This document shows positions 13,367 through 43,064 of a stretch of DNA of 64,000 nt, piece after piece (within the stretch, counting starts at the first letter, position 1; each line of letters begins with the position of its first letter). The notes under the pieces were generated by a model. That model made no database searches, was not told where the DNA came from, and saw only the letters and a program-made list of their open reading frames with translations. A program made the translations under genes and the position numbers. Origin of the DNA: Halocatena salina (lineage in GTDB: Archaea > Halobacteriota > Halobacteria > Halobacteriales > Haloarculaceae); the NCBI RefSeq assembly GCF_023115355.1, contig NZ_CP096019.1, positions 310,001-374,000 of the forward strand, read 5' to 3'.

Positions 13367-13637
13367 CGGTAGTGGACACGAACACTCGCCGTTGGTATCG
13401 GTACACTCCCCACATTATTCTCTTCCAACGCGCATTTCAGAACATCTGCATTCTGATTTCATCACGCCCGTCATCTCAAACATCATAGAAAAAATTATTA
13501 TAGTATAAATGTATACTGTTCAGATAATGGTACACAGACCAGCCTATCTCCTCCCCCCGCGGGTGTCCTTTACAACTGCTCTTCTTAACATCCCGACTAT
13601 TGTTCATTTTTCTGCCGAGATGCTTCCCGTAATCCTA

Positions 13638-14885
13638 ATGGACCGATACGATTATGATCGGCTTCGAGCACGGACACTCCAAGCTGCGGCGGGGAATCTG
13701 AAAGGACTTTATCTCACTATGGCATTCGATGAATTACGTCGGCGCGATGTGATTCAACTGGTCGATTACGCAACGTTTCATTCACCAGTAACCCAAGAAC
13801 GGTCGCTTCAACGGACTCAAGCACTACTGAGGAACACTCCAGAAGACGTTCATCACCGTTTGGCAGTGGACGCACTTGATGAGTGGATTGACTATGGTCG
13901 AGGAGCGTACCAAAAACCGTTCCGTGAAGCAATTGGTGAGGAAACTAGCTCGTTTGTTGATCTCCGTTCAGATGAGGAACACCAACAACGAAAGCTAAAA
14001 CGCGGCACGAGTAATCCAGTTCGACGGAACGAGAAAACACTCAATAAAGGGATGGCTGCGCTTGCTATTCGCCAACAGACCCAACAGCAGTTGAATCTTG
14101 ATGTTCGGGGGGTCATTTGTAGCTCCCAGTATGAGATTATCGATGACTTTCTCTCATCCGCTACCCAATCGTCTGGACCGGGTACTGATCGATGTCGTCC
14201 CAGTATTGATACCGATGAGATAGCAGCATTAGAACCCGTCAGACGGACTGTAGGCATTAATACATCTATGATTTCACAAACACAAGACCTTCTTTCCGTC
14301 ACGAGTCGGGTGACGACCGAGATCGCTGGAGTACAGCATAACGACTGGTTTATGCTTTCTCCGTCGTTCGCTATTCCGAACTATCAAGACATATTTGACT
14401 TCGACATGATCCATCGACAGGCACGTACGTATGACATTGAGCGCCTTGTTGCAGAAATAGAGAGTGTTATCAATACGTTAGATGCAAGTAGAGCAGACGA
14501 GACGTCGCCGAATGAGTTACAGTATGATGCTGGGTGGGTGGCTGAACAATTTGGTTTGTCCTCACCTACGAACACTGACCAACCAGCGGGACTAACAGAT
14601 ATGGTTGAGTATCTATTCACCCTGTCAAACTACGCCCGAGAATTACGCACCCTCACTGAGAGAGAAACTGTCTCAGAAGCTGCTGCATTGATCGGAGTCA
14701 GCATCGTTGAAAGTGGCCGATACCACGAAGATGAGGCAGTGTATCAGCGATGTATGGAAATGTTACACCGACTGGCCCCCGAATCCTTCGATGATATGAA
14801 ACCAGCTCAGTTTCGAAAGGAACGTCAAAGTATCACGTGGAGGGATTCTGTTGATTGGTTTGAAGCGGTTGATCGTTGGCGGTAG
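13638..14885 (+). CDS. Uncharacterised haloarchaeal protein
   Basis: I do not recognise this 415-aa protein. It is mostly helical by composition, with no membrane segments and no obvious catalytic motif. The reading frame is open from 13509, but the first 43 codons there encode hydrophobic sequence unlike the rest, and 13638 begins MDRYDYDRLRARTLQAAAGN, which looks like a normal N-terminus. An AT-rich tract at 13480-13510 may be its promoter. It lies between the MBL gene and the IPP isomerase, both on the same strand, with gaps too large to suggest an operon. Confidence 0.55.
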   Translation: MDRYDYDRLRARTLQAAAGNLKGLYLTMAFDELRRRDVIQLVDYATFHSPVTQERSLQRTQALLRNTPEDVHHRLAVDALDEWIDYGRGAYQKPFREAIGEETSSFVDLRSDEEHQQRKLKRGTSNPVRRNEKTLNKGMAALAIRQQTQQQLNLDVRGVICSSQYEIIDDFLSSATQSSGPGTDRCRPSIDTDEIAALEPVRRTVGINTSMISQTQDLLSVTSRVTTEIAGVQHNDWFMLSPSFAIPNYQDIFDFDMIHRQARTYDIERLVAEIESVINTLDASRADETSPNELQYDAGWVAEQFGLSSPTNTDQPAGLTDMVEYLFTLSNYARELRTLTERETVSEAAALIGVSIVESGRYHEDEAVYQRCMEMLHRLAPESFDDMKPAQFRKERQSITWRDSVDWFEAVDRWR

Positions 14886-14959
14886 TATCAGATGTATGAC
14901 AACCAAACACGTCCGCAGAACCAAACAGTTGAAGCGTTCCATCTCTCTAACCATAGGAG

Positions 14960-16021
14960 ATGGAACACCAGACTTCTGACCGGAAAGACGATCACATCGA
15001 TATTATTCTCCGAGAAGATGTCGAGACTTCTGGGACCGGTTTCTCAGATGTGCAACTACTCCACGAAGCGCTTCCGGAATTGCATCAAGACCACATCGAT
15101 ACATCGGTTGAGTTCTGTGGTCAAGACCTCACTGCGCCGGTGATCATCGAAAGCATGACTGGCGGCCATCCGAATACGACCAAGATCAATCGTTCGTTGG
15201 CCAAAGCCGCACAGAGAACCGGCATTGCGATGGGTGTTGGGAGCCAACGTGCCGGGCTTGAGAACCCCGATAACGATGAGTTGATGGAGTCGTTTACTGT
15301 GGTCCGAGATGTGGCACCTGATGCGTTCATCTACGGAAACATCGGTGCTGCACAGCTTTCGGAGTACGGTGTCTCGGGTGTCGAACAGGCTGTATCGATG
15401 ATCGACGCTGACGCACTGGCGATCCATCTGAACTTCCTCCAAGAGGCCGCTCAGCCGGAGGGTGATACTGACGCGAGAGGTTGCTTGGAACAAATCTCGA
15501 TCATCGCGTCTGATCTGAGCGTTCCTGTGATAGTCAAGGAAACCGGCAACGGAATTTCCGAGGAAACCGCCAGTCAACTCACCGCAGCTGGTGTCGATGT
15601 TCTTGACGTTGCTGGGAAAGGAGGAACGACGTGGTCTGGTATCGAGGCCTACCGTGCGCGCGCAGCCGGAGCGAATCGCCATGCCAAGATCGGGAAGCGC
15701 TTTCAGAGCTGGGGCATTCCAACCGCGGTGAGTACAGCCCGTGCAGCTGCTGTCCATCCTTGCGTGGTCGCAAGTGGAGGCGTTCGATCAGGGTTGGACA
15801 TCGCAAAGGCAATCGCACTGGGTGCATGTGCTGGCGGGATGGCGAAACCGTTCCTCCAACCAGCGACAACAGGTGCTGACGCTGTTGTAGATCTTATTGA
15901 GGATACCATCGCAGAGATCCGAACAGCTATGTTCGTCTCCGGAGCAGTATCAGTTGACGCATTACAGGAGACTGACTACGCAGTAGTGGGCCGAACGAAG
16001 GAATTCCTTGAGCAATTCTGA
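14960..16021 (+). CDS. fni: Type-2 isopentenyl-diphosphate delta-isomerase (FMN-dependent)
   Basis: This 353-aa protein is of normal family length. It interconverts IPP and DMAPP, needed for archaeal isoprenoid lipids, carotenoids and quinones. Visible signatures are [13 protein letters not shown] at the N-terminus, [11 protein letters not shown], the FMN-site stretch [49 protein letters not shown] and [14 protein letters not shown]. The ATG at 14960 starts just before the conserved Arg-Lys-Asp-Asp-His. An essential lipid-pathway gene inside an accessory island suggests a second, transferred copy. Family assignment is secure. Confidence 0.92.
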
Positions 16022-16029
16022 GTATCTCC

Positions 16030-16488
16030 CTACTCAATACGGGCCTCAACAGTGTATGTAACACTCCCGTTCGTACGCACGGTTGTCACCCATCCTTCGA
16101 TCGGGTGCCCATCAGTTTCGTTTTGACGAACGGCTCCCTCAATGACGGTCACATCTCTTGTGGATCTGTCGTCGGGCTCCGGTCGTGTCATAATTGTCTG
16201 TTCTGTTTCGATATGGTAGTAGTTGATATCATCACCCATTCCCGTTATACGCAACATCTTCTCATCGTTCTGATCGTGGCACGGGGTATGGTTCGCCGGA
16301 GAACTAGTATAGGTCGCATCTGTTGGAGTCGCAGACTGGGCCAGACGAGGCCCATCGAGCAGTCCGACGACACCACAGAGAGCAGTGTGTTTCAGGAATC
16401 GCCGTCGACTTGCGGCCTCAATCTGTGAATTCTCGTCCTCTGTACGTTGTCTCGTGGATTGCTTCTCGGTCATCACCGTGTCCTCCAT
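16030..16488 (-). CDS. Tat-exported small protein of unknown function
   Basis: This 152-aa protein has a twin-arginine signal (SRRRFLKHTALCGVVGLLDG, about residues 28-47) ending near Ala-Gln-Ser-Ala. The mature part of about 95 residues looks like a beta-rich domain (INYYHIETEQTIM, then VTTVRTNGSVTYTVEARIE). A Cys in the signal region (TALCG) is early for a lipobox, so I favour a secreted form. It is the last gene of a three-gene minus-strand set, starting 18 bp after the 484-aa gene stops. No family is recognised. Confidence 0.65.
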   Translation of the reverse strand: MEDTVMTEKQSTRQRTEDENSQIEAASRRRFLKHTALCGVVGLLDGPRLAQSATPTDATYTSSPANHTPCHDQNDEKMLRITGMGDDINYYHIETEQTIMTRPEPDDRSTRDVTVIEGAVRQNETDGHPIEGWVTTVRTNGSVTYTVEARIE

Positions 16489-16506
16489 CTGGTGTATTTG
16501 AACGAG

Positions 16507-17961
16507 TTATTCTGGAAATGCAGCCTGAGGATCGTTTAACCACGCGGTAAGCTCTTCTACTGTTGCGTTCTCCCCAAGGAGAGCCGTGGCGGCGGTTTCA
16601 CACGCCGCTGGCAAGCACTGGGCAATGTCATCTGAGGATGGAAGAGAGAAGGCGAAGACAGAGCTTTCAGCGAGCGGTGTTCCTCGGATAATTCTTTCAA
16701 TCTCTGCCTCTCGTTCAGATCGAATACGACCAAGTCCACTTTCGTTCCCGAACGCGGTCAGAAACTGTCGTCGAAACAGAGCCCGTCGCACAGCGATCAG
16801 ACTGTCCTCAGTGGCCACGTTAGGATTCAGTGAGTACCAGGCTCGTTCGAGTGTGAACGTGCCCTCAACAAGTTTGAGTCGAACGACTTCGATGACCGGC
16901 CCCCGAAGTCGTTCGTGCAGAAGATCAACGTACATGGTCCGTGTCTCGGTATCGGAAACGATTGCATCGTGAGGCGCCGCCGCCGGTGAACAGGTGTGGT
17001 GAAAATCATCAGCGGTAATCTCTTGTAGCGATCGTCCCGCACGAAGCTCGTGAATAACATAAACCAACCAAAGATCACAGTATTGCTCACTGACGGGTGA
17101 TCGGAGTGTTTTGTCCAACTGATCGAACTCAACGTCGTGGTTCCTCATGAGTCGCCAGAGTGTCGCTTCAGTTCCTCGAAGAGCAGTCACACGAGATTCA
17201 ACAGCCCGTTGGACGGCTGGATCAGCCATCGTATAGTCCTCGGTCAACATCGCCAGCAACTCAACGATGAATCGACTCGGTGTTGTATACAGCACTGCTA
17301 ATCGATCAAGGAACTCCATGTCGGTCCATGTGCGTGCTTCTGCCCCGACGAGAATAGACCGATAGTACAATTCGAATTCCTTCCACAGGGCGGTGTCGGG
17401 ATCTAATAAACATTGCACGTGCTCACGTTCATGCCGGCGGATGTTCTCTTTGAGGAGAGTCGCTGCTTGCGTCGCGACAGTGTCATCGAACGACTCGTAC
17501 AGCCCCGGTATGAGAAGATCCTGGCGGAGAGCATCACGGCTTTCGGCATCAACAGTGGCCCGGCTGTGGATCAGGTCAATGAGTGCCCGCTCGTCGATAT
17601 CGGTGAGGAGCATTGATCGGGATAAGGAGTCTACACTCATCCCCATATGGCCGTGCATCCCTAGCGCACCACGAACGTGGACATCAGGTGTGGTTCCCTT
17701 GATAGTCGGCTCACCAGTGGGGACGAACGTTAGCATCGATGAAGCAGCGTGTGAAGATGTCTGGTGCTTCGTTGATTGATGTACAGCTACTCCAGCTATC
17801 TCAAGCGGCATCTCAATAGTGAAAATCGGCTTTTTGGTCTCGATCAGTTCACCCAGCCAACTGGTCTGGCTGTTTCGAATTCGGGTGATGTCGGTAGACG
17901 CCTGACCAAACGTCGGACCGAGTTCGATCGTGATAGTTCTCGAAGAGTCTCTGGTGGTCAT
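16507..17961 (-). CDS. Unknown 484-aa protein in a regulator operon
   Basis: I do not recognise this protein. It is predominantly helical after about residue 120, with no signal peptide or membrane segments. A His/Glu-containing stretch (RRHEREHVQCLLD, about residues 186-198) is the only motif that could bind metal. Its start ATG shares one base with the stop of the upstream winged-helix gene (TGATG), showing translational coupling. The Tat-exported protein follows. The set diverges from the split-dikinase operon, so it may act in the same pathway. Confidence 0.6.
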   Translation of the reverse strand: MTTRDSSRTITIELGPTFGQASTDITRIRNSQTSWLGELIETKKPIFTIEMPLEIAGVAVHQSTKHQTSSHAASSMLTFVPTGEPTIKGTTPDVHVRGALGMHGHMGMSVDSLSRSMLLTDIDERALIDLIHSRATVDAESRDALRQDLLIPGLYESFDDTVATQAATLLKENIRRHEREHVQCLLDPDTALWKEFELYYRSILVGAEARTWTDMEFLDRLAVLYTTPSRFIVELLAMLTEDYTMADPAVQRAVESRVTALRGTEATLWRLMRNHDVEFDQLDKTLRSPVSEQYCDLWLVYVIHELRAGRSLQEITADDFHHTCSPAAAPHDAIVSDTETRTMYVDLLHERLRGPVIEVVRLKLVEGTFTLERAWYSLNPNVATEDSLIAVRRALFRRQFLTAFGNESGLGRIRSEREAEIERIIRGTPLAESSVFAFSLPSSDDIAQCLPAACETAATALLGENATVEELTAWLNDPQAAFPE

Positions 17962-19100
17962 CAGTTGTGGGACTGATTCTCGGTCTCTTCGACCGGTCCC
18001 AATGGGTACACACCGGAGTCCACATCAAGCAGCCAGTACGGCGTCAGCTGTCTGCTCGTATCGTGCTCATCAACGATTCGGCTCAGCCGTGCGAGTAGTT
18101 CTTCAGCTGTCATCTCCCTGATCGGTAGTATAGGCTGTACCTCCTGTTGATCATGTGGTGTATCATTTGTGTCCTCACGAGTCACACAGTACCCAAGCAC
18201 GACTGTCGGTGATTCCTGTATATTTCTCTTGCCCGTAGGTTGCGGCTGACCACCACTGAATCCCTGTGGCTGGAACTGATTGGTAATATCACCCGTAACA
18301 GATTGACGGTGAGAGTGCTCATCCTCTCCAGTCGGAAGACGATGGCTTTCACCTGATTCACTACGGTTTTTAGTATCGTTACCCGCAGTTAGAGCATTCC
18401 CCTCAGCTCCGTCACTCACGTTGATCTTATCTTGTTCACGGAGTAACTGGGTGATCTCATGAAACAACCGTACGTGTTCCTGCCCTTTTTCGGTGAGTTC
18501 GATCTGGCTCCCATCGAACGAAAGCACTTCCGCCTCATTGAAGCGTTGGACCGCCTGCCGAACCTGCTTTGTCGTTACACTCTCACCTCGCTCTTGCCGT
18601 CGCGTATCGATATCTGAGACGACATCATCGATCCACACCGGCTGCGGTGTTCCGATAAGTCCATCAAGATCACTCCGTTCATACAACGAATCGAGGAGTA
18701 AAAACGGGAGTGTACTCCGAGAGTCGTGCAAGGGGGTAAGCATTCCTGCGACTGCGTCTTTGTCAGCCTCTTCCTGCCACTCAACAGCATGAAGATCACA
18801 GCCTAGTCGATCCATCATCCCGCTAATCAGGCCGATGATGGATTCTCCGGCATCCGTGACGGTGTAGCGAGATCCTCGCTTTGCTATAAGTGGAACGGGA
18901 AGCGACGCTAACGATCGAATGTAAGACGAAACGGTTGATTGGGTCCGGCCGATAGCCGCAGCGATCTCGGCCTGATCCTCGGTTGTGGTATCGTACATAA
19001 CGAGAAGCGACGCCAGTGTTGGTGGTGTCAGTGTCCGCAGAATCTCCCCAGTAGCAACGATTACGGGTGTTGGTCGGTCAGTAGTGTTCGGATGAGGCAT
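17961..19100 (-). CDS. Winged-helix transcription regulator with long acidic linker
   Basis: This 379-aa protein has an N-terminal HTH at about residues 22-75 (ASLLVMYDTTTEDQAEIAAA, then RTQSTVSSYIRSL, wing RYTVTDAGESI). A middle region resembles a second winged helix (TTKQVRQAVQRFNEAEVLSF, then IELTEKGQEHV). A disordered Gly/Gln/Ser-rich stretch at about 245-300 precedes a small C-terminal domain. It probably controls the divergent operon starting at 19252 and its own operon. The ATG at 19100 leaves about 150 bp of shared promoter region. The ligand or signal is unknown. Confidence 0.65.
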   Translation of the reverse strand: MPHPNTTDRPTPVIVATGEILRTLTPPTLASLLVMYDTTTEDQAEIAAAIGRTQSTVSSYIRSLASLPVPLIAKRGSRYTVTDAGESIIGLISGMMDRLGCDLHAVEWQEEADKDAVAGMLTPLHDSRSTLPFLLLDSLYERSDLDGLIGTPQPVWIDDVVSDIDTRRQERGESVTTKQVRQAVQRFNEAEVLSFDGSQIELTEKGQEHVRLFHEITQLLREQDKINVSDGAEGNALTAGNDTKNRSESGESHRLPTGEDEHSHRQSVTGDITNQFQPQGFSGGQPQPTGKRNIQESPTVVLGYCVTREDTNDTPHDQQEVQPILPIREMTAEELLARLSRIVDEHDTSRQLTPYWLLDVDSGVYPLGPVEETENQSHN

Positions 19101-19251
19101 GGCCAGGGTGACTCACATTCTCCTATTGTACGTTTGGCAAACCATCGCATGCACATAGAAGCCCGATACATATGAAAATTATGTCTACTAGCACCAATAC
19201 TATACCTTATACCCAAATATTTATCTTCTACTTCGAATAAAGCTAGTATAG
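19101..19251. promoter_or_regulatory. Divergent promoter region between regulator and dikinase operons
   Basis: This 151-bp AT-rich spacer separates the two operons. A TATA-like AAATATTTATC (about 19215-19225) lies roughly 30 bases before the ATG at 19252, giving a leaderless arrangement. Runs such as TATACCTTATAC (19201-19212) form an imperfect repeat that could be an operator. This is inferred from sequence only. Confidence 0.4.
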
Positions 19252-19575
19252 ATGTGCGATATTGAAAGGCGACGAGCGGTAGAGAAGATGCAACAGGACC
19301 AACCGAACAATGAGACACACAAGGTCGATATAGCACAGTTTGTCGACGAGCAGTACTGCCCAAACTTCACGATTAAGCACGGACTCGACTCGACGACAGA
19401 CGATGCGTTCTACTTCGCGTTCGTCTGTTCTGGCAGTGAATACCCGAATCCATTGAAAGGCGATCCTCACGAGTTTCAGGATCAGCCGCTTCGCTGTGTA
19501 CGCTGTACTCGCGTCTCGGTTCTGGTTGGATCGGCACTTGAACAGTTCGCCGAGGAGGTGTACTATGCTGGGTGA
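19252..19575 (+). CDS. Small cysteine-containing protein heading the dikinase operon
   Basis: This 107-aa protein has VDEQYCPNFTI and a late CVRCTRVSVLVGSA. The three cysteines may bind zinc. No family is recognised. The ATG at 19252 fits the TATA spacing; an internal ATG at 19288 is possible. It overlaps the start of the swivel-domain gene at 19565 by 11 bp, so the two are coupled. It could be an adaptor or substrate-recognition subunit, which is inference. Confidence 0.6.
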   Translation: MCDIERRRAVEKMQQDQPNNETHKVDIAQFVDEQYCPNFTIKHGLDSTTDDAFYFAFVCSGSEYPNPLKGDPHEFQDQPLRCVRCTRVSVLVGSALEQFAEEVYYAG

Positions 19576-21028
19576 GACTCGTGAAAGACAGTGGAAGCAG
19601 ATCAACTTCCGGACTGTCAAGACGGTTCTTGGCATGGAATTTCTCCATGAACTCTACAATAGATACCACCCAGAGATCAACTGTCTCCGATTCAAGAACA
19701 CGGTCATAGCGACGGAGGGAAAGCAGGTCACCAGCTACGCTCCGAAGGATGAATGGGAATTCATGGGGAAATGGTTCGGAAAACGATTTCTTAAGAAAGA
19801 CCAAGCGGTTATTGACAATTTGCAGTCATACCTCGACCGACCGAAAGAGAGGTTCCATCGGTTCCTTGAGGAGATGGAGACGGCAGACATCACAGAGCTG
19901 GATAACGAGGAACTCGCTATGGCCCTCATTGATATCCAGTTCGTCCCGCTGACCGAACTCTACACAGTCAATCACGTCCAGATAGAACACGCACTGAATG
20001 GGGCGATCGATACCCTTCTTGAAAGGGAATTCGACGATGAAGAGGAGTTCAATAAAGCCAAGTCGACACTCATCTATGCAGACAAGTTGACCGTTGGTGT
20101 TGAAGAGAAGCAAGCGTTCTACGAACTGGTCAAAGACGGTCTTGAACTGGGAATAGACACCATCGAACAGGGAGACGGAAACGCTGTTACTGCTGTCCGT
20201 GATCATTTCGAGGAGTACAGATACATTCATAGCGCGTACGGAGCCGAGCCATACGAATTCGAGTACTACGTTGAACGCTATAACGATCTCGCGGACAAAG
20301 GGATCGCACATATCGAGACCACCCTTCAGCAGATCGAAGCAGCTGACAAGCGGGCTGCTCATCGACGGGAGGAATATCTATCGAAGATCGACCACAACGA
20401 GCAGTTGAAAGAGCTTGTTGAGTTGATGGCCAGCGTCGGAACCCTTCGTGACAGAAACAAGGCATTGCTTGGCCAAAGCACGAAGTACAGAGAGCAACTC
20501 CTCAACGAAATCAGTGAACGATCCGGTGTGCCACGTGAAGAACTCAACTGGTATTTCCTTACGGAGCTGTGCAAGCTATTGGACAACGGCTCACGGATCG
20601 ATGACGAAACGATAGCGTCGCGAAAGGTTGGTATGGTCTTCACCCGCAACGAACTCGTCGATACAAACGCATCGTTTGCCATCGAAGACGACGCTACCGG
20701 TGTGTTAGCTGGCGAGTGTGCCTCGGTTGGGACATACGAAGGAGTGGTTCGTGTCGTTCGAGATAGCAGCGACAACGATCGAATGAATCTCGGCGATGTC
20801 ATGGTCGCACCGGGCACAGATTTTGACCTCATCAACGCGATGCAACGGGCCGGTGCTATCGTGACGGAGGAGGGTGGAATCCTAAGCCACGCCGCAGTCA
20901 TCAGTCGAGAGCTGGACATCCCGTGTCTCATCGGAGTCGAAAAGGCGACTGAACTGCTTGAAGGCGGGAAACGCGTCCGTGTTGATGCCGATGGGGGCGA
21001 AATAACGGTGCTGGGTGATCAAATATGA
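19565..21028 (+). CDS. Split PEP-synthase/rifampin-phosphotransferase-like protein: helical domain plus phosphohistidine swivel domain
   Basis: In this 487-aa protein the first roughly 370 residues are helical and charged. The C-terminal 110 residues are a PEP-utiliser mobile domain: GECASVGTYEGVVRVV, VMVAPGTDFDLINAMQRAGA and EEGGILSHAAVISREL, whose His (about residue 442) is the phosphate-carrying residue. In PEP synthase, PPDK and rifampin phosphotransferase this domain shuttles phosphate from an ATP-grasp domain to a substrate site. Here the ATP-grasp partner is encoded separately at 21570. No PEP/pyruvate TIM barrel is present, so the helical part may form the acceptor site, as in rifampin phosphotransferase. 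It starts at 19565 inside the preceding gene and ends in an ATGA overlap. Confidence 0.8.
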   Translation: MLGETRERQWKQINFRTVKTVLGMEFLHELYNRYHPEINCLRFKNTVIATEGKQVTSYAPKDEWEFMGKWFGKRFLKKDQAVIDNLQSYLDRPKERFHRFLEEMETADITELDNEELAMALIDIQFVPLTELYTVNHVQIEHALNGAIDTLLEREFDDEEEFNKAKSTLIYADKLTVGVEEKQAFYELVKDGLELGIDTIEQGDGNAVTAVRDHFEEYRYIHSAYGAEPYEFEYYVERYNDLADKGIAHIETTLQQIEAADKRAAHRREEYLSKIDHNEQLKELVELMASVGTLRDRNKALLGQSTKYREQLLNEISERSGVPREELNWYFLTELCKLLDNGSRIDDETIASRKVGMVFTRNELVDTNASFAIEDDATGVLAGECASVGTYEGVVRVVRDSSDNDRMNLGDVMVAPGTDFDLINAMQRAGAIVTEEGGILSHAAVISRELDIPCLIGVEKATELLEGGKRVRVDADGGEITVLGDQI

Positions 21029-21573
21029 CACGAATCGTTTTTCTCCGTCATTTCGAGACACAGATCGACGAAGAGAAACCCGTCTCTGAATGGGAACTGA
21101 CTGAAGACGGCGAAATAGCCATGCAGAAACTACTCGAAAGTCCCACCATCGACGGACTGACGAGGGTGTATTCCAGCCCAGAGCACAAGGCCCGCTACAC
21201 GGCCCAGGCCGTCGCTGCGGAGCAAGATATCGACTGTCGAACGGTGGATGCGCTTCGAGAGGCCGACAGGAGCGGAGAGGGCTTCATCGAGGATCCGGAT
21301 GAGTACGTGCGCATGGTCGGTGAACTGCTTAGGAACCCGACCGTGCCGTTCGAATGGGAAGACAGGATTGATGTCGAGAATCGCATCAGAACGTTCCTCG
21401 ATACAGTTGGTCCGGATGAAGGCCGAGTGATGGCCGTTTCTCACGGAATCTTCTTGTCTGTGCTCTTTTCGCAGTGCCGAGATGAGAAACCGCTTGCGTT
21501 CTGGAAAGAGCTTGGTTTCGGGGAGATCATCGAAGTAGATCGAGCTGAGTTGGTGGAGGTCTTCGAGACATGA
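21025..21573 (+). CDS. Histidine-phosphatase-superfamily protein (phosphoglycerate mutase/SixA-like)
   Basis: This 182-aa protein starts MTRIVFLRHFETQ, the Arg-His-X-Glu catalytic motif with the nucleophile His9. It continues with YSSPEHKARYTAQAV and a second catalytic His in VMAVSHGIFL. Enzymes of this fold remove phosphate from small metabolites or from phosphohistidine (SixA). It is fused by ATGA overlaps to the swivel-His gene before and the ATP-grasp gene after. It may therefore strip phosphate from the carrier histidine or act on the product of the dikinase. The substrate is unknown. Confidence 0.85.
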   Translation: MTRIVFLRHFETQIDEEKPVSEWELTEDGEIAMQKLLESPTIDGLTRVYSSPEHKARYTAQAVAAEQDIDCRTVDALREADRSGEGFIEDPDEYVRMVGELLRNPTVPFEWEDRIDVENRIRTFLDTVGPDEGRVMAVSHGIFLSVLFSQCRDEKPLAFWKELGFGEIIEVDRAELVEVFET

Positions 21574-22361
21574 GTCTCGTCTCTTTGGCCGATGTCAACC
21601 CGAACGCCGTCGAGCAGTACGGAGGGAAGGCCACCACACTCGCCAGGCTTATCCAAGAAGGGTATACCGTTCCGGACGGGATCGCTGTGGAGGCACAGTT
21701 CTCTCACAACGGCCATCTCCACAGGATCGGTGACCGAGTTGAGGAGTGGGCGCGGTCCCGAGGATCTACTCCAGTTATTGTCCGGAGCAGCGCCAACATC
21801 GAAGATGGAGCAGCAAACAGCTTTGCTGGGCTGTTTGAGAGCTTCATCGTACCGCCTGATGATGTCTTGGATGCAGTTGAGCGCTGTTACAGCTTCATTG
21901 ATTCCACCAGGGTCACAACGTACAGCCAGACGTTCGGAATTGATCCGGAGACGATTCGGCTTGGTGTCATCGTTCAGGAAGTAGTAGATGCCGATGCCTG
22001 CGGAGTCTGTTTCACAACCCATCCAGTCCGGGACGATGATACGGTGGTTATCGAGGCAGCTGCTGGTATCGGCTACTCGGAACAAGATGATGTGACACCC
22101 GATCGCTTCGTTGTCTCCCAAGACGGGGAGCTGGTAACGAAAGATGTCTCAGTGCAACAGTATACGACTGCGCTGACTGAGGACGGACTCATCGACCGAG
22201 AATCAGCCATAGAGAGGCAGGTTGTTACCGATAGCACGGTCGTACGCATCGCTGAACAATGTCTGGGCATCGAGAAAGCGCTTAGCTACCAAGCAGATAT
22301 CGAATGGGCCGTACGGGATGGAACGGTGTTCATCCTGCAAGCCCGTCCTATCACGACATGA
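21570..22361 (+). CDS. Stand-alone ATP-grasp domain of a PEP-synthase/rifampin-phosphotransferase-type dikinase
   Basis: This 263-aa protein corresponds to the PPDK_N nucleotide-binding domain only. It has GGKATTLARLIQEGYTVPDG near the N-terminus, VIVRSSANIEDGAANSFAGL, LGVIVQEVVDADACGV, VVIEAAAGIG and the terminal DIEWAVRDGTVFILQARPIT. These match ATP-binding Lys, Arg and Glu positions of the family. It would transfer the beta phosphate of ATP to the swivel His of the 19565 product. The split order (swivel before ATP-grasp) is the reverse of the fused enzymes. It starts by ATGA overlap with the phosphatase gene. Confidence 0.85.
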   Translation: MSLVSLADVNPNAVEQYGGKATTLARLIQEGYTVPDGIAVEAQFSHNGHLHRIGDRVEEWARSRGSTPVIVRSSANIEDGAANSFAGLFESFIVPPDDVLDAVERCYSFIDSTRVTTYSQTFGIDPETIRLGVIVQEVVDADACGVCFTTHPVRDDDTVVIEAAAGIGYSEQDDVTPDRFVVSQDGELVTKDVSVQQYTTALTEDGLIDRESAIERQVVTDSTVVRIAEQCLGIEKALSYQADIEWAVRDGTVFILQARPITT

Positions 22362-22419
22362 GCAGTTTGATAACCAATACTACTGGCCGAATCCAACGAC
22401 GAATGTCCAATCAGCACGC

Positions 22420-23664
22420 ATGATCTCGAATTGGTGGCGTTTCCCCTCGTGGCTTCCAGTACAGCGATCGAAAGCCATCATTGACGCCTACGGACTTGGT
22501 CTGTTATTTTCAGCGAACGTATTCGGAGCTGGCTCGGTATACATCCTTTCGAATACTGGAGCGAATTTCGGCTTCACTCTCCTGTGGACGTTACCGCTTG
22601 CGTTGTTCGTCGACATGGGTATGCACGAAATGTCCGGCCGACTTGCCACGATTGACAAACCGCTCATGGAGTACATCCGCAATACGATCGGGACGGGTCC
22701 GTCCAAGGTCGTCTCCGTCGGACTCGCGTTTATCATGCATTTTTGGGCGATTTCGAACTACGCGGTGGCAGGCACTGCACTCGTGTGGTTGACACCGATC
22801 AACAATACCTATCTCGGGATGATACTTGCTGCTGGTAGTGGGATCGCCATTCTTGAACTTCGGGTGTACGACCGTATTGAGGCTGCGATCACGACACTCA
22901 TATTTGCTGTGTTCGGTATCTACCTTGTTCTCGTTTTCGGGATCAATCTCCCGGTACAGCAGGTTGCAACTGGGCTGGTCCCAGCACTGACAAGCGACAT
23001 TGGATATCTGGTGACCATCGTCGGGCTGTTTGGGACAACAGTCTACTACCCGAACTTCTTTATCCAGTCAAGTATCCGCCCCACGAAGGGATGGACAGAG
23101 ATGGCCTTATACCGACGGGATAATTTCGTTGGAATCACCTTTGTTATCCTTCTCAGCATAGCCGTTATCTCCGTTTCGGCGGCAGTCTTAGAACCAGGCA
23201 CACCAACTCTTACCAGTCCTGGTACACCACTGGCATCGATACTTGGGTCAACAGCACTGACTGTGTTCGTCTTCGCGGTGTTTCTGGCGTCGTTCACCTC
23301 AGCAACCGGAACGCTGTTCGGTGCCGGGTTCCTGGTTCCGCAGGCGTGGGGATACACGACCGTTTTCGGTGACTATCTGTTTCGACGGATCGTCCAAGCA
23401 CTGATTGTCCTATCGGTCATCTTTGCAATCCTGCTGTTGGAAGTCACCGATATGAGTACGGTTCGTCTTGCCCTCGTGATGCCTGCTGTGAACGGTCTCA
23501 TCGGGTTACCGATCACCGCACTTGCACTCTATTTCGCAAACCGGAAGTTCTTCGACCATCCGCTGTTGCTTCGAATCTACTTCGCTCTCCTCGTTGGATT
23601 GATGTTCGTGCTAGGGCTGCTAACAGCGCAGGGTCTTCACGGACAGATCATTCATTGGATATGA
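22420..23664 (+). CDS. Nramp-family-like membrane transporter lacking canonical metal motifs
   Basis: This 414-aa protein has about eleven hydrophobic helices. The first (AYGLGLLFSANVFGAGSVYI) and the sixth (LFGTTVYYPNFFIQSS) align by position with Nramp TM1 and TM6. In true Nramp proteins these carry Asp-Pro-Gly-Asn and Met-Pro-His; here they read Phe-Gly-Ala-Gly and Tyr-Pro-Asn, so transition-metal ligands are absent. Nramp-related magnesium or aluminium transporters show comparable losses. I chose the ATG at 22420, since the upstream in-frame extension lies in the preceding gene. It follows the dikinase operon by 58 bp and probably belongs to it; it may move the substrate or product. Confidence 0.7.
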   Translation: MISNWWRFPSWLPVQRSKAIIDAYGLGLLFSANVFGAGSVYILSNTGANFGFTLLWTLPLALFVDMGMHEMSGRLATIDKPLMEYIRNTIGTGPSKVVSVGLAFIMHFWAISNYAVAGTALVWLTPINNTYLGMILAAGSGIAILELRVYDRIEAAITTLIFAVFGIYLVLVFGINLPVQQVATGLVPALTSDIGYLVTIVGLFGTTVYYPNFFIQSSIRPTKGWTEMALYRRDNFVGITFVILLSIAVISVSAAVLEPGTPTLTSPGTPLASILGSTALTVFVFAVFLASFTSATGTLFGAGFLVPQAWGYTTVFGDYLFRRIVQALIVLSVIFAILLLEVTDMSTVRLALVMPAVNGLIGLPITALALYFANRKFFDHPLLLRIYFALLVGLMFVLGLLTAQGLHGQIIHWI

Positions 23665-23764
23665 ATATTTGACTCCTTGAATCGCTGTAAGACAATGGAT
23701 TTCACTGTTCGACGATATACTTAATATTATAGAATATTCATATAAGAACGGTCTCACGGAACTC

Positions 23765-23905
23765 CTAGTACCATTCCCGCGCTCGCCCAGCAGTGTCGAG
23801 CGAGCGCTTGACGAAGGTGTTGACGGTTTCTGTCATCGCTCGCTGTCCGTAGAGATCGTCATCGATCCGAGCGTTGTAGGCGTAATCGTACGGTGCATGG
23901 ACACA
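23765..23905 (-). pseudogene. Remnant of an IS transposase C-terminus
   Basis: Read on the minus strand, 46 codons before a stop give a sequence including YNARIDDDLYGQRAMTETVN and VKRSLDTAGRAREWY. This matches the C-terminal part of haloarchaeal IS5/ISH-type transposases as I recall them. The frame breaks upstream, and a coding-like stretch continues in another frame to about 23990, suggesting decay by frameshift. The final few residues usual after REWY are missing. It marks an old insertion between the dikinase and defence-like modules. Confidence 0.55.
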
Positions 23906-24105
23906 ATGTTTGGCTCAGCTTTGGCGTCTTGGTCGTGGTTAGTGGGCTGTGGATCCTCGACGGATTGCCGCCGTTTTTCATTAAGCTGCTGTTAGTCAGA
24001 ACGCTCATAGCGTTTCTCACGTACAACCGACAGTGCACCGAACCATTGACCCAAGCCGGCCACTTGGTCGATCTGTACCACTCCTCGTTCCAGAGATCGA
24101 CTCTG

Positions 24106-24888
24106 TCAGTCCACACACCGCATGTCAATAATCCCATCAGGAATATGGGGACCTCCATCGGCGTGGACGTACCACCACTCTGGGATCATCTCACGTCCGG
24201 ACTGTGGATTCGGATCGAAACATCCCTTTGGGAAGGTTGGGAGATTTTCGAGAGAGGTCAACACCTTGTTCGGCCACGTTGCGTTTTCGGCCTGCTCGTG
24301 ATCTTTGATAATCAGGTACAGGATGCCGACGAAATCCATAGGCGGCGACGGTATCCGGGGAAAGTCAGGATACTCTTCCAACAATTCGTCCTCATTCGTA
24401 ATCCGGTACTCTTGATTGAGCACTCCGATGCCAATCGCTGTCGGTGCATACTGTACGTGAAAAATCGGGTGCCGTGCGTCTGGCTCCGACTCGAAGTCGT
24501 AGTGCATCCCCTGTTTGATCTCTGCTGGGAACCGACCATCATCTTCCCGGTCACTCTGTCTCCGGAGATACGACACCCGTGTAGTCGACTTGTCAATCTC
24601 ATATCGGATGCCATCATCATGCTCTCGGCCACGGATAGTCAGCTCAGGCCGGAAACAGATATCGAACAGGTCGTCAGGCCTGTCCCGACGGTACTGCAGT
24701 CCACTGATCTTGAAATAGGTTGGAACCTCAACCTGGAGTTTTCCTTCATATTTCGAGACGTTGATGTTGTCGGAGTTTCCCTCAGCTTTGATCCCTTGGG
24801 AACCCTTGAACCGATTCCAAAACGACTTGTACGCTATTTTAATCTCATACAAGTCTTCGCTGTCCAGATCAACGATTTCTCCGGGCAT
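24106..24888 (-). CDS. Unknown protein, last gene of the defence-like operon
   Basis: This 260-aa protein is cytosolic by composition and not a family I recognise. Visible features are a well-structured core with HYDFESEPDARHPIFHVQYA (His-Pro and a second His, about residues 129-148) and a C-terminal Trp-Trp segment (MIPEWWYVHADGG). The His/Asp/Glu content leaves a nuclease or other effector possible but unproven. It follows the receiver-like gene by 8 bp and ends the one-strand operon, a position often held by an effector or specificity subunit. A long ORF on the opposite strand is a shadow. Confidence 0.6.
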   Translation of the reverse strand: MPGEIVDLDSEDLYEIKIAYKSFWNRFKGSQGIKAEGNSDNINVSKYEGKLQVEVPTYFKISGLQYRRDRPDDLFDICFRPELTIRGREHDDGIRYEIDKSTTRVSYLRRQSDREDDGRFPAEIKQGMHYDFESEPDARHPIFHVQYAPTAIGIGVLNQEYRITNEDELLEEYPDFPRIPSPPMDFVGILYLIIKDHEQAENATWPNKVLTSLENLPTFPKGCFDPNPQSGREMIPEWWYVHADGGPHIPDGIIDMRCVD

Positions 24889-24896
24889 AATAGATA

Positions 24897-25979
24897 TTAA
24901 CTTAGTGTCCAGGGCTCCAGTCGAGCCAGTTCATCCCGCGAAATCCGTGACCGGGTGGCACCCATCGGAATCCAGCCCTCGGGATTCTTCGAATGCTCCT
25001 CACACACCGATTTTTCCTTGATGATACAGTAATACCGGGCATCTTCGTGATTCTCCGATTCACCGTCATGGCAGACAGCCTGCTCAATCTCCGGTAACTC
25101 CAATCGCCGGAATATGGTCTGGCCCAATGGCATCTCCGTGTCGGTGTCGGTCATATGTTCCGCTCGGATTTTGTCGACCTTCGGCGTCCACCACCACCGA
25201 CCGAGTTCCGAGAACGGCCCCTCGTACAGGGCGTTGTTAAACGGCTCTTGATATGCCAGAGCCTCGCAGAACGATTCGTGATCGACATTAAGATAAGCGG
25301 CCAAGGCGATCGGGTTCAGTAGGGCCCCCGGAAACTCGAGGAGTTCGTTGTGTATCCAATACCCCAGATGGGTGGTCGACCGGCGGATGAGATCATCACG
25401 ATTCATATCCGGTCCACCGCCCATCAATGCACCAGGATTCCCCCAAGAATATTGATCGAGTTTCCCGCGGACACCGCGCGGAGCGTCCAAAATCTCTGGA
25501 ATGGCAGGTTGGGACTCTGTTCCGAGCGCGTCTGCAAATGAATTCCTGATCTGGTTGAATCCTTTGGCAATGTTCGCTGCGTCGCGAGCGACTTCTTCTG
25601 GCCCCTTGCTAGGATTTATTTTGATTCTATCTTCTTCATATACTTTGACGCGGCGCTCATCTTCTAGTCCACTATCGATCCGGTGATAAATGCAAAGCGG
25701 TAGATCGTGGTCTTCACAGAGCTGGCGGACGTGTTCTCTCCGGACTTGATTACTTGCTGCTGTTAGGTCATAATCAAGAACAATAAGTAACGGGAAATGT
25801 GGACTTTTGACCCGATTCTCCAGTTCATCCATTACCCCATCCGTATCAAATGGAGTATCGTGATCGAATCGCTGTAATGATAATTCATCCAATAATTCCT
25901 CTTCGAGAGGTGCTCGAATATCCTTAAAATTCTCGTCGATATCCTCGAACACAAGTACTCTGTCATCGAACGCAGTCAT
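24897..25979 (-). CDS. Receiver-like (response-regulator) protein with long C-terminal domain
   Basis: In this 360-aa protein residues 1-125 follow the receiver pattern: RVLVFEDIDEN with the acidic pair, LLIVLDYDL with Asp69 or Asp71 as the likely phospho-acceptor, LPLCIYHR and RIKINPSK with the conserved Lys region. Residues 130-360 form an unknown domain with two late cysteines (AVCHDG, SVCEEH) and several Trp. Its start overlaps the stop of the double-GHKL gene (ATGA), the common arrangement for a kinase and its receiver. I infer that it is the partner of that kinase-like protein. Receiver assignment is moderate; the output domain is unknown. Confidence 0.6.
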   Translation of the reverse strand: MTAFDDRVLVFEDIDENFKDIRAPLEEELLDELSLQRFDHDTPFDTDGVMDELENRVKSPHFPLLIVLDYDLTAASNQVRREHVRQLCEDHDLPLCIYHRIDSGLEDERRVKVYEEDRIKINPSKGPEEVARDAANIAKGFNQIRNSFADALGTESQPAIPEILDAPRGVRGKLDQYSWGNPGALMGGGPDMNRDDLIRRSTTHLGYWIHNELLEFPGALLNPIALAAYLNVDHESFCEALAYQEPFNNALYEGPFSELGRWWWTPKVDKIRAEHMTDTDTEMPLGQTIFRRLELPEIEQAVCHDGESENHEDARYYCIIKEKSVCEEHSKNPEGWIPMGATRSRISRDELARLEPWTLS

Positions 25980-28198
25980 CGTGTTAGCCTCACCTCAAAG
26001 GCGGTTTCAAACTCATCCGGTGAGTCGACGAGTGATATCTTACCACCAACACGCTCCACGACTTGTTTGACGATATACAGTCCGAGCCCAGATCCAACAC
26101 TAGTCGGACCTTCAACATCTGTCGTGGAGTACATCGGTTCGAAAATGCGTGTCCGTTCTTCCTTTGAGATGCCGACGCCATTATCAATCACTCGCACCTT
26201 ATGCCAGTCACTCGTATTTTCGGCTTCAAATCGGATCTTACGACCGTCGTCACCAATCGAATCCTCGACGACGGCCTTGATAGCGTTCGTGTATAAATTG
26301 ATCAGAACACCGCTGTAGAGACCAACATTCACCTCGGGCGTCTCTAGTCCGAACCTGATCGCGTTCTCCACCTCTATCTCCCGTCGCTCGGTGTACCGTT
26401 CAAACTTTTCAATAATCATGTTCACTTGTGGCTTGGGCTTGAAACTGGAGTCAGATCCGGATGAGATCTGTTCGACGAACGCCTGGGAGTAACTCAGATG
26501 CGTCTCGAAATCCTCCACTGCCTGTTCTGTATGCTCAATCCGGTCTTGGAACTCGTCGCTGCGGTCCTTCGGTGGTACTTGCTTCCAGTGATCGAGCATG
26601 TCCTTCGCTGAGTCCAAGATCAGGGTTGTCTCATGACTCATGAACGCGGACACGACTCCGAGTAAGTTCATCGATTCAACGGCTTCCCGGGCCTCTTTCT
26701 CGGCCTCATGGTGCTCTTCAACCTGTATCTCAATATCCTCGACTTGGTCAAGTAGTTCCTGTTGTGTTGCTTCCCCGATATCGTCGCTCTCCTGTACAAA
26801 TTCTTTGGTCGAGCTAATTGTGGACGTGGTCTTGTCTTTCTTCTCTTCAGCCTTCTTTTTCTTTTGCTTCTGCTCCTCAAGTCGGTCGATAACACCGAGG
26901 ATTTCGAGGCTCCCCCGCGTGATATCAACGAGCTGTTCGTAGGCGTCGTTTTCGACGAAGCCTTGCCGGTCCATTGACGGCATGAGCCGATCTTTCATCA
27001 CTGTACTGGCAATCTCCTCAGACCGGTAGCTGGAGACGTGGATAGCTCCAAGCACCTGAACTTTCCGCGGTAATTGGAGCATGGCTTGGCTTTCAGTGAT
27101 TTTCCGTTCGCCTTCCGGGAATAATGCCTCGGTTATGGGTGACTCCCAGTTCCGCGAGCGGCGGGCCTGCGCTTGGGATAGACCGAGCCAGTCATCTCCT
27201 TGATCGCCGTATGGGGGCATGCGGAAGTTGTTATCGACAATTCGGATGCCGCCGTTCTCGCTCAGCCAGCTACGGGCCTTTCGTCCGTCCGCAGTCCGCA
27301 TCCCGGCTAGTACACCTTTCCGTCGTGGAATCCACCGAATTTCGCCTTCAATATCGCCGACGAGGTTCTCATCCAGTTCGTATTTGTAGGTGCGGGACTC
27401 GCCGCCTTCGTAGTCGTACTCGTATATTAAGGTTTGACCGTCGACGGTGATTTCTACCTTAGCAACGTATCGTTCGTAGATTTCCTGCGCAACGCTGGTT
27501 CGCGGGGAGCCCTTCCCGGGTGGGGCGAAGTAGACGTTGAATCCAGGGTCTTCATCGTCACTTCCCTCGATTTCCGAAGGTGAAGATTCATACGGTGCCG
27601 ATACGATGTCGAGGACTTTGGCCGAGACTTCCTCCAGTTCTTCCTCGGTCCACTCGTCCTGCAGGTCGGAGATGCGGAGTGTCGTGCCCTCCTCTTCTGC
27701 TGTTGCGCTGGCCTCAATCCGGTAGCTAACTTCCATCTCTTGAAGGCCAGTCCCACTCTCGAACGCTTCCCAGTCGAAATTGGCGATGAGGCGGCGATAC
27801 TCGTCCGCTTCCTCGTAGTAAGCAATAGTCCGGAGCTCTAGGAACAGTCCAAGGTTCCGGACAGCAAACCTGCCGACGCCTTTTGACCCCTGTACTTCCC
27901 GGCTGTAACGCCGCGATGTGGGGTTTCTGTCCCGATTTGAGGTAGCGATAGTCATCCAGAAGTCTTTGAATTCCGCCTCAGTCATTCCATGGCCGTTGTC
28001 CTTGATTATGAGTGCGCTGTTGTTGTCGTTAATCCAGATATTGCACCGGGTTGCGTCGGCGTCGTAGGCATTCTTGATTAGTTCGGCAAGTGCGACATGG
28101 CTGGTGGCGATCAGACGTTCACCCAACTCGGACAGAAGTTGGCTGTCGCTGGTGAATCGAGTTTGCTCCTGTTTGATGATTTGCTGGGACTCAGACAC
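25976..28198 (-). CDS. Double-GHKL ATPase: MutL/MORC/Hsp90-like N-terminus and histidine-kinase-like C-terminus
   Basis: In this 740-aa protein the N-terminal GHKL domain has ALAELIKNAYDADA (N-box), IIKDNGHGM (G1) and QGSKGVGRFAVRNLG (G2), as in MutL, MORC and Hsp90 relatives. A beta-rich middle follows, then a coiled coil rich in Lys and Glu (about 435-510). Next come a DHp-like helix with FMSHETTLIL (candidate phospho-His) and a second GHKL with NLYTNAIKAV, VRVIDNGVGIS, FEPMYST and GSGLGLYIVKQVV. It thus combines a conformational ATPase with a sensor-kinase core. MutL/MORC-like ATPases next to methylases and helicases are known in restriction-like operons. It is followed by a receiver-like gene. 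Confidence 0.8.
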   Translation of the reverse strand: MSESQQIIKQEQTRFTSDSQLLSELGERLIATSHVALAELIKNAYDADATRCNIWINDNNSALIIKDNGHGMTEAEFKDFWMTIATSNRDRNPTSRRYSREVQGSKGVGRFAVRNLGLFLELRTIAYYEEADEYRRLIANFDWEAFESGTGLQEMEVSYRIEASATAEEEGTTLRISDLQDEWTEEELEEVSAKVLDIVSAPYESSPSEIEGSDDEDPGFNVYFAPPGKGSPRTSVAQEIYERYVAKVEITVDGQTLIYEYDYEGGESRTYKYELDENLVGDIEGEIRWIPRRKGVLAGMRTADGRKARSWLSENGGIRIVDNNFRMPPYGDQGDDWLGLSQAQARRSRNWESPITEALFPEGERKITESQAMLQLPRKVQVLGAIHVSSYRSEEIASTVMKDRLMPSMDRQGFVENDAYEQLVDITRGSLEILGVIDRLEEQKQKKKKAEEKKDKTTSTISSTKEFVQESDDIGEATQQELLDQVEDIEIQVEEHHEAEKEAREAVESMNLLGVVSAFMSHETTLILDSAKDMLDHWKQVPPKDRSDEFQDRIEHTEQAVEDFETHLSYSQAFVEQISSGSDSSFKPKPQVNMIIEKFERYTERREIEVENAIRFGLETPEVNVGLYSGVLINLYTNAIKAVVEDSIGDDGRKIRFEAENTSDWHKVRVIDNGVGISKEERTRIFEPMYSTTDVEGPTSVGSGLGLYIVKQVVERVGGKISLVDSPDEFETAFEVRLTR

Positions 28199-28296
28199 GG
28201 TAGCTGCTTATACTATGATAGTCATGGCTAATAAATTATTGAAATCTATTACACCAAGCCACCTTTATCCGCATTCATTGATTAATGGTGTATAGT

Positions 28297-28710
28297 TTAT
28301 AATCTTAAACCAGAAATATCTTCTGGTAGATACTTTTCATAGTCAAAATACCCATTCTCCTCAATCTCACCTGAGATCACCTGCAGACCGCCCTCGAAAT
28401 AACGAATCATCGCCTCTTGCAGTTTGTCTGCGTCCCGATCCGGGTGACGGATTTCGATCAACGTTTTCAGAACATCGTACGGGTCCACTGACTCCGTCGA
28501 CGTCCGATACGGATCTGGTCCGCTAGGTTCCAGCATCTTCTCATCCGCAACCCCGACAGCTATCGCTGTATCCACAACCCGGCCCGTATTGATGCTCACG
28601 TCCTCGCCCTGGAACTCCTCAAAGATATTCCTCCGAACCGTCTCCCACGCATCACGACTCGCACGGATCGTGAATCCTCCCTCGATATTGTCGAAACTCC
28701 CGTTCGGCAT
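28297..28710 (-). CDS. Small unknown protein downstream of the DndD-like ATPase
   Basis: I do not recognise this 137-aa protein. The N-terminus (GGFTIRASRDAWETVRRNIF) looks like a strand-helix unit as in small DNA-binding or oligomerising proteins, and the C-terminus (ENGYFDYEKYLPEDISGLRL) is acidic. It starts one base after the DndD-like gene ends, so it is coupled to it. It may be a partner subunit, as small proteins are in Dnd-type systems; this is inference. Confidence 0.6.
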   Translation of the reverse strand: MPNGSFDNIEGGFTIRASRDAWETVRRNIFEEFQGEDVSINTGRVVDTAIAVGVADEKMLEPSGPDPYRTSTESVDPYDVLKTLIEIRHPDRDADKLQEAMIRYFEGGLQVISGEIEENGYFDYEKYLPEDISGLRL

Positions 28711-28711
28711 C

Positions 28712-30664: not shown

Positions 30665-30678
30665 CGTTCCTCCTGTGA

Positions 30679-30864
30679 TTACACGTCCTCCGCGTCGTTG
30701 AGATATTCCTCGGTGTATTCGTCCATTTGATCCAGCTTCCCGTACCGGGGTTGCTGGATCTTATCAACCTGCCAGTCGAGGATATTCTTCAGGAGATTCT
30801 GCTCACTCAGGTCGGAAATCTCTTCATCGATAAGACGCTCCAGATCAGGATCTAGGCTCGGCAT
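30679..30864 (-). CDS. 61-aa acidic protein within the defence-like operon
   Basis: The gene begins 2 bp after the PLD-helicase ends and stops 14 bp before the DndD-like gene starts, so it is clearly placed in the operon. The product is helical and acidic (LDPDLERLIDEEISDLSEQN at the start, MDEYTEEYLNDAEDV at the end). It has no catalytic motif. It may be a small bridging subunit between helicase and ATPase. No family is recognised. Confidence 0.55.
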   Translation of the reverse strand: MPSLDPDLERLIDEEISDLSEQNLLKNILDWQVDKIQQPRYGKLDQMDEYTEEYLNDAEDV

Positions 30865-30866
30865 GC

Positions 30867-42990: not shown

Positions 42991-43064
42991 CGGGCTGAGA
43001 GGGATTTGAACCCTCGGCCGTCTGGTTAAGAGCCAGATGCTCTGCCTGGCTGAGCTATCAGCCC
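42991..43064 (-). tRNA. tRNA-Lys (anticodon CTT)
   Basis: Read on the minus strand: acceptor stem GGGCTGA/TCAGCCC, D arm beginning TAGCTCAGCC, anticodon stem TCTGG/CCAGA around loop CTCTTAA (anticodon CTT) and T arm GAGGG-TTCAAAT-CCCTC. Discriminator G; CCA is not encoded. No intron is seen. It reads AAG codons. I see no repeat of its 3' end at the island edges, so it does not appear to be the attachment site. Confidence 0.95.

Follow-up and report, generated by a model that had tools for sequence, protein, structure and literature searches.

Dikinases in which the ATP-grasp domain and the phosphohistidine swivel domain are split between two polypeptides have already been described in bacteria, as PpsAB, CreHI and HpeHI (PMC12167813), and in the Hpe pathway a phosphatase, HpeD, dephosphorylates the carboxylated product (PMC9618137). 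Among the fused enzymes, mutagenesis of rifampin phosphotransferase (RPH) has shown that K22, R117, R666 and E667 are essential; H825 is the carrier, with Arg666 and Glu667 needed for the second half-reaction (PMC4844700). Here we describe a five-gene operon on the plus strand of a 64,000-nucleotide stretch of the Halocatena salina genome (NZ_CP096019.1, positions 310,001 to 374,000; hereafter the window), located at window positions 19252-23664, that probably encodes a small-molecule dikinase in two components, together with a dedicated phosphatase. The initial annotation of the locus had offered two options, a phospho-carrier system or a small-molecule phosphotransferase, and our results favour the second. 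It had also presented the split, and the phosphatase beside it, as a departure from the usual fusion of these domains; both have precedents, in PpsAB, CreHI and HpeHI and in HpeD. The split itself is therefore established; what had not been established before is the interleaved phosphatase gene, the compact ATP-grasp and a substrate domain of unfamiliar type.

The coordinates of the open reading frames (Table 1) bear out the tight packing of the five genes. The frames of the Cys protein and the 487-aa protein overlap by 11 nucleotides (nt). ATGA overlaps of 4 nt form the 487/182 and 182/263 junctions, and 58 nt separate the ATP-grasp stop codon from the transporter start. The domain calls made from the sequence alone were matched by Pfam with clear scores: the PEP-utilizers swivel at residues 410-478 of the 487-aa protein (E 2e-20), His_Phos_1 in the 182-aa protein (E 5e-16), PPDK_N in the 263-aa protein (E 1e-41) and Nramp (PF01566) in the 414-aa transporter (E 9e-31). 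The domains of the kinase have matches in the Protein Data Bank as well. PEP_utilizers_C was not found in the Pfam scan of the five proteins, in agreement with the proposed absence of a phosphoenolpyruvate (PEP)/pyruvate barrel, and the pair does not belong with PEP synthase and pyruvate phosphate dikinase by this C-terminal domain.

The 263-aa (I) subunit aligns with the ATP-grasp domains of PEP synthase, RPH and PpsB. Its K20, R72 and E245 correspond to RPH K22, R117 and E297, and S91 is a conservative counterpart at the position of RPH T136; the subunit also carries Q257 and R259. Many of the residues that separate the Lys segment from the VRSSA motif are missing in this protein, and comparable shortening is present in proteins of Rubrobacter, Roseinatronobacter and, in part, Deinococcus radiodurans. 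Phylogenetic analysis of ATP-grasp domains set it apart from the PpsB group, at the end of a very long branch and nearest to the lone ATP-grasp of D. radiodurans, by a weak join (93/88) that we flag as a meeting of long branches. The host genome encodes three further PPDK_N proteins in long open frames of 790-921 aa, and the lone ATP-grasp is therefore not the sole such enzyme of the cell.

The 487-aa (H) subunit has the complete swivel signature, T434-x2-GG-x3-H442, with H442 as the carrier His, and its RPH-like homology extends upstream of the swivel. NCBIfam PRK06241 models align with residues 257-483 and 279-483, the Protein Data Bank match to RPH (5fbs) spans residues 260-483, and hhalign joins columns 293-486 to an RPH/YvkC-like profile (99% probability, E 9e-20). 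That alignment places LRDRNK on the FREYPK of RPH, which puts R295, D296 and K299 at the positions of RPH Arg666, Glu667 and Lys670, with Asp in place of Glu. With the PPDK_N ATP-site Lys and Arg, the swivel carrier His and this apex motif, the pair has three sequence features of the RPH-type small-molecule dikinase superfamily. The separation of a helical, swivel-His protein from its ATP-grasp partner is real and the catalytic residues are intact; counterparts of K20, R72, S91, R295, D296 and H442 are all kept in a second copy of the operon, in Halobacteriales archaeon YIM A00013, where the loss of swivel or ATP-grasp residues that would have spoken against the initial annotation is not seen.

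Several observations weigh against the reading of the pair as a two-component small-molecule dikinase. The R[ED]xxK motif by itself arises in 11% of segment shuffles, and the weight of R295-D296-x-x-K299 therefore lies in its aligned position and not in its presence alone. Residues 1-250 of the 487-aa protein have no detectable homologue outside the two genomes, which makes the assignment of the substrate domain indirect. An AlphaFold2 model of this protein from two sequences reached a predicted local distance difference test score (pLDDT) of 38 and a predicted template modelling score (pTM) of 0.22, and it is in this low-confidence model that helices run along residues 1-355. Finally, the neighbouring genes include no catabolic or biosynthetic pathway that would point to the substrate.

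We infer the following chemistry. The 263-aa subunit would present ATP, and H442 of the swivel would attack the beta-phosphate with loss of the gamma-phosphate, giving phosphohistidine; the swivel would then move to the helical domain, where R295, D296 and K299 would position the phosphate so that a small-molecule hydroxyl can accept it. The predicted net reaction is ATP + R-OH + H2O -> AMP + Pi (inorganic phosphate) + R-OPO3. The 182-aa phosphatase would strip the phosphate from the product or from a later intermediate, so that the phosphate would serve as a temporary tag; as a second option, it would reset phospho-H442. The transporter may move the compound.

The phosphatase retains R8-H9, E79 and H140, and thus has the RH motif and the second catalytic His of histidine phosphatase branch 1; Lys55 stands at the position that we presume is usually occupied by a phosphate-pocket Arg. 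Its closest solved structure is Atu0299 (2qni), and although the RH motif and second catalytic His are common to it and SixA, it is nearer to Atu0299-like proteins, scoring 12.5 bits (E 0.1) with the SixA equivalog model against a cut-off of 74.5. Its relatives on plasmids are limited to six records. The gene lies between those of the two subunits, and at either end its start or stop codon overlaps that of its neighbour; this arrangement speaks for a part in a shared process. The phosphatase would most likely act on the small molecule once phosphorylated, or on some later intermediate, as the precedent of HpeD suggests, in preference to the carrier His, for which SixA and its carrier NPr would be the precedent.

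The same overlaps with both subunit genes would also suit a phospho-carrier or regulatory relay, in which the ATP-grasp phosphorylates H442, the 487-aa protein acts as a phospho-switch and the phosphatase removes the phosphate. SixA, a member of the histidine phosphatase superfamily, is reported to dephosphorylate the phosphohistidine carrier NPr (PMC7948535, PMC6282199). We regard this relay, the main rival to the split dikinase, as unlikely: a long helical domain and an RPH-type substrate-site motif would be superfluous in a pure carrier, the match of the phosphatase to the SixA model is marginal, and a partner acceptor protein is not apparent.

Like HpeHI, CreHI and PpsAB, the window dikinase has its ATP-grasp and its substrate and swivel-His parts on separate nearby genes, H first, and lacks the pyruvate barrel; a phosphatase is likewise encoded in the Hpe cluster. 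Split pairs in the H-then-I order were present in the searched collections in Azoarcus (phenylphosphate synthase, beside ppc genes), Thermomicrobium roseum and D. radiodurans. The subunits of the window pair are smaller than those of the Azoarcus and Thermomicrobium loci, at 263 aa against 360-375 aa for the ATP-grasp and 487 aa against approximately 604-611 aa for the H subunit. Known two-component H subunits are approximately 45% identical over their whole length (PMC12167813), whereas the alignment with Azoarcus PpsA is confined to 107 columns of the swivel (34% identity); the whole-length likeness that would mark a member of the PpsAB/CreHI/HpeHI group is thus absent, and the adjacency of the two subunit genes is present, with the phosphatase gene between them. 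That phosphatase is of the histidine type, whereas HpeD is related to NagD. No aromatic-pathway genes were recognised in Pfam and NCBIfam scans of the neighbouring genes. To judge from its sequence, the window pair would work like PpsAB/HpeHI-type pairs; as to their clade, its ATP-grasp branches outside the PpsB group, though the branch is a very long one.

With the fused RPH/YvkC-like dikinases (PMC4844700) the pair shares three functional parts, the ATP-site K/R/E, the apex R-(E/D)-x-x-K and the swivel His, the homology covering residues ~257-487. It differs from RPH in being encoded by two genes and not one, in its compact ATP-grasp, and in an N-terminal 250 residues that are unrelated or strongly diverged; rifampin is not expected as its substrate. 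In the D. radiodurans pair a helical and swivel gene is likewise followed by the gene of a compact, lone ATP-grasp (annotated at 262 aa), but there no phosphatase gene is adjacent. This independent pair lies on a plasmid (L155: 5501-6957 + 7019-7807), where in the record the ATP-grasp is intact and the helical and swivel gene is broken into two frames, and it adjoins genes for a major facilitator superfamily (MFS) transporter, a P450, TldD/PmbA and a carbamoyltransferase. If the split dikinase assignment is right, the window would hold a haloarchaeal example, distinguished by its compact ATP-grasp, its unfamiliar substrate domain and its interleaved phosphatase gene. This would suggest that splitting of RPH-type enzymes has happened more than once, and would offer a small testable system for the handling of carrier phosphate and product.

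Compact proteins of approximately 460 aa that join an ATP-grasp to a swivel His and have no substrate domain occur apparently on some 22 viral contigs (L133-L154, by match spans) and in two haloarchaeal genomes (L052 and L053, checked with Pfam). Short frames in genomes G018 and G144 that we considered as split pairs were rejected as such compact fusions.

Among NCBIfam models, the 263-aa ATP-grasp matches that of the prodigiosin ligase PigC best (E 1e-40), at a score far below the cut-off of the family. This match, and the P450, MFS transporter and carbamoyltransferase genes near the D. radiodurans pair, would fit a PigC/RedH-like ligase in which transient phosphorylation of one substrate drives a condensation, the phosphate leaving. 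We consider such a ligase quite improbable, as genes of a second-substrate pathway are not nearby and the phosphatase would waste the activated intermediate.

The full five-gene set is present also in YIM A00013 (genome G044, locus L039). Its phosphatase and transporter are each 93% identical in protein to those of the window, its 487-aa protein and ATP-grasp each 92%, and its Cys protein 81%. The ratio of nonsynonymous to synonymous substitution (dN/dS) is 0.15 for the 487-aa protein, 0.09 for the phosphatase, 0.14 for the ATP-grasp, 0.15 for the transporter and 0.25 for the Cys protein; internal stops are absent from the YIM A00013 copies and the overlaps are conserved. The high identity, intact frames and low dN/dS indicate that the five genes are not chance frames, and both copies are under purifying selection, which is evidence for function. 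Because these genomes are closely related and share synteny in the upstream flank too (fni, 152-aa, HExxH 484-aa and helix-turn-helix (HTH) genes), the linkage is supported by a single comparison.

The complete set is very rare: it was found in just two genomes, both of a single genus, where a mobile island carries it. The lone ATP-grasp was found in 2 of 146 genomes of the family. Among 391 genomes of the class, the N-terminal region of the 487-aa protein matched its own genome alone, plus one chance-level match (E 6e-4), and a sample of 381 class genomes likewise gave its own genome alone; neither sample contains YIM A00013. A search of the genome contig collection returned the YIM A00013 locus alone, and searches of the plasmid collection and viral contigs for the gene set gave zero matches. 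The conserved linkage for which the initial annotation had proposed to search is thus seen in YIM A00013 and not in the other collections searched. That a PEP synthase/RPH relic is decaying or non-functional on a mobile element would agree with this extremely restricted distribution and with the want of one probable zinc ligand in the window Cys protein, but is highly improbable given that both copies keep every one of the kinase residues, that the phosphatase, kinase and transporter genes have dN/dS of 0.09-0.15, that stops are absent and that the overlaps are conserved.

A more speculative extension of the split dikinase reading, which we hold to be rather unlikely, is that the operon is a mobile haloarchaeal phosphorylation/dephosphorylation switch. 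The phosphatase would be its third subunit, with the carrier His or the bound product as target, and the dikinase, carried on a defence-rich island and with a substrate domain unlike that of any characterised dikinase, would switch a metabolite, a signal or an antibiotic back and forth between two forms.

Canonical Nramp divalent-metal transporters carry DPGN in transmembrane segment (TM) 1 and MPH in TM6. The 414-aa transporter belongs to the Nramp fold family and has neither motif: its TM1 reads ANVFGAGS, without a DPGN-like motif, and its TM6 reads YPN. It belongs to a widespread haloarchaeal Nramp-fold clade (matches in 134 of 292 genomes; nearer relatives 51-68% identical), and in ten neighbourhoods of its relatives that we examined the kinase genes were unmatched. 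On a Natrinema plasmid (L090:3184-7799), an RPH-like dikinase in two overlapping frames lies ahead of an Nramp-fold gene that shares 31% identity with the 414-aa transporter. This is a possible second pairing of dikinase and Nramp, and at most a weak hint of a link between transporter and kinase.

Relatives of the Cys protein carry C-x2-C ... C-x2-C, of which one ligand position is Ser in the window copy (CSGS) and Cys in the YIM A00013 copy (CSGC). They occupy other haloarchaeal mobile loci, for example near GFO/IDH/MocA and AstE/AspA-type genes, and we dropped the idea of a kinase-specific Cys protein because its relatives sit beside other enzymes in other mobile elements. Both the Cys protein and the transporter are only weakly linked to the kinase.

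Table 1. Coordinates of the operon and its upstream neighbours in the window.
Feature	Position	Strand	Basis
107-aa small Cys protein, zinc-ribbon-like	19252..19575	+	Pfam scan: no family
487-aa H subunit: helical substrate-domain-like part (residues 1-370) and swivel domain	19565 (ATG)..21028	+	Pfam, NCBIfam, profile alignment
182-aa histidine phosphatase, branch 1	21025..21573	+	Pfam His_Phos_1
263-aa I subunit, compact stand-alone ATP-grasp	21570..22361	+	Pfam PPDK_N
414-aa Nramp-fold transporter	22420 (ATG)..23664	+	Pfam Nramp
Divergent intergenic region between HTH gene (-) and operon (+)	19101..19251	.	Conservation in YIM A00013
379-aa winged-helix regulator-like protein, divergent neighbour of the operon	17961..19100	-	Sequence scan

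The 150-nt divergent region upstream of the operon is strongly conserved in YIM A00013 and has a TTTATC-type promoter-like element approximately 30 nt upstream of the first start codon. The 379-aa HTH protein is possibly a local regulator of the operon. It belongs to a set of u458, HTH and HExxH (484 aa) proteins (window 13509-19100) that recur jointly at many loci of the genus (L116-L132), adjoining TFIIB-like, PadR-like and TraD/TrwB-like genes, and that form a haloarchaeal mobile platform with variable cargo. The operon looks like cargo on this recurrent platform within the island.

The island also contains integrases at 6.3 and 35.7 kb and, on the minus strand at 24106-32978, Pbe-type (phosphorothioation-linked) defence genes, of which those for the PbeC-like (650 aa) and PbeA-like (703 aa) proteins score very highly; beside them are a gene for a 740-aa double-HATPase protein, uncharacterised 260- and 360-aa genes and, at 33-35 kb, an N6 DNA methylase. 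None of the five operon proteins matched a known defence family in PADLOC. A remnant of an IS5 transposase (23663-23912) lies directly downstream of the transporter, at about the end of the synteny with YIM A00013. A tRNA-Lys(ctt) gene (42991-43064) lies near a rise in GC content from approximately 52% to approximately 58%, at what is probably a boundary of the island.

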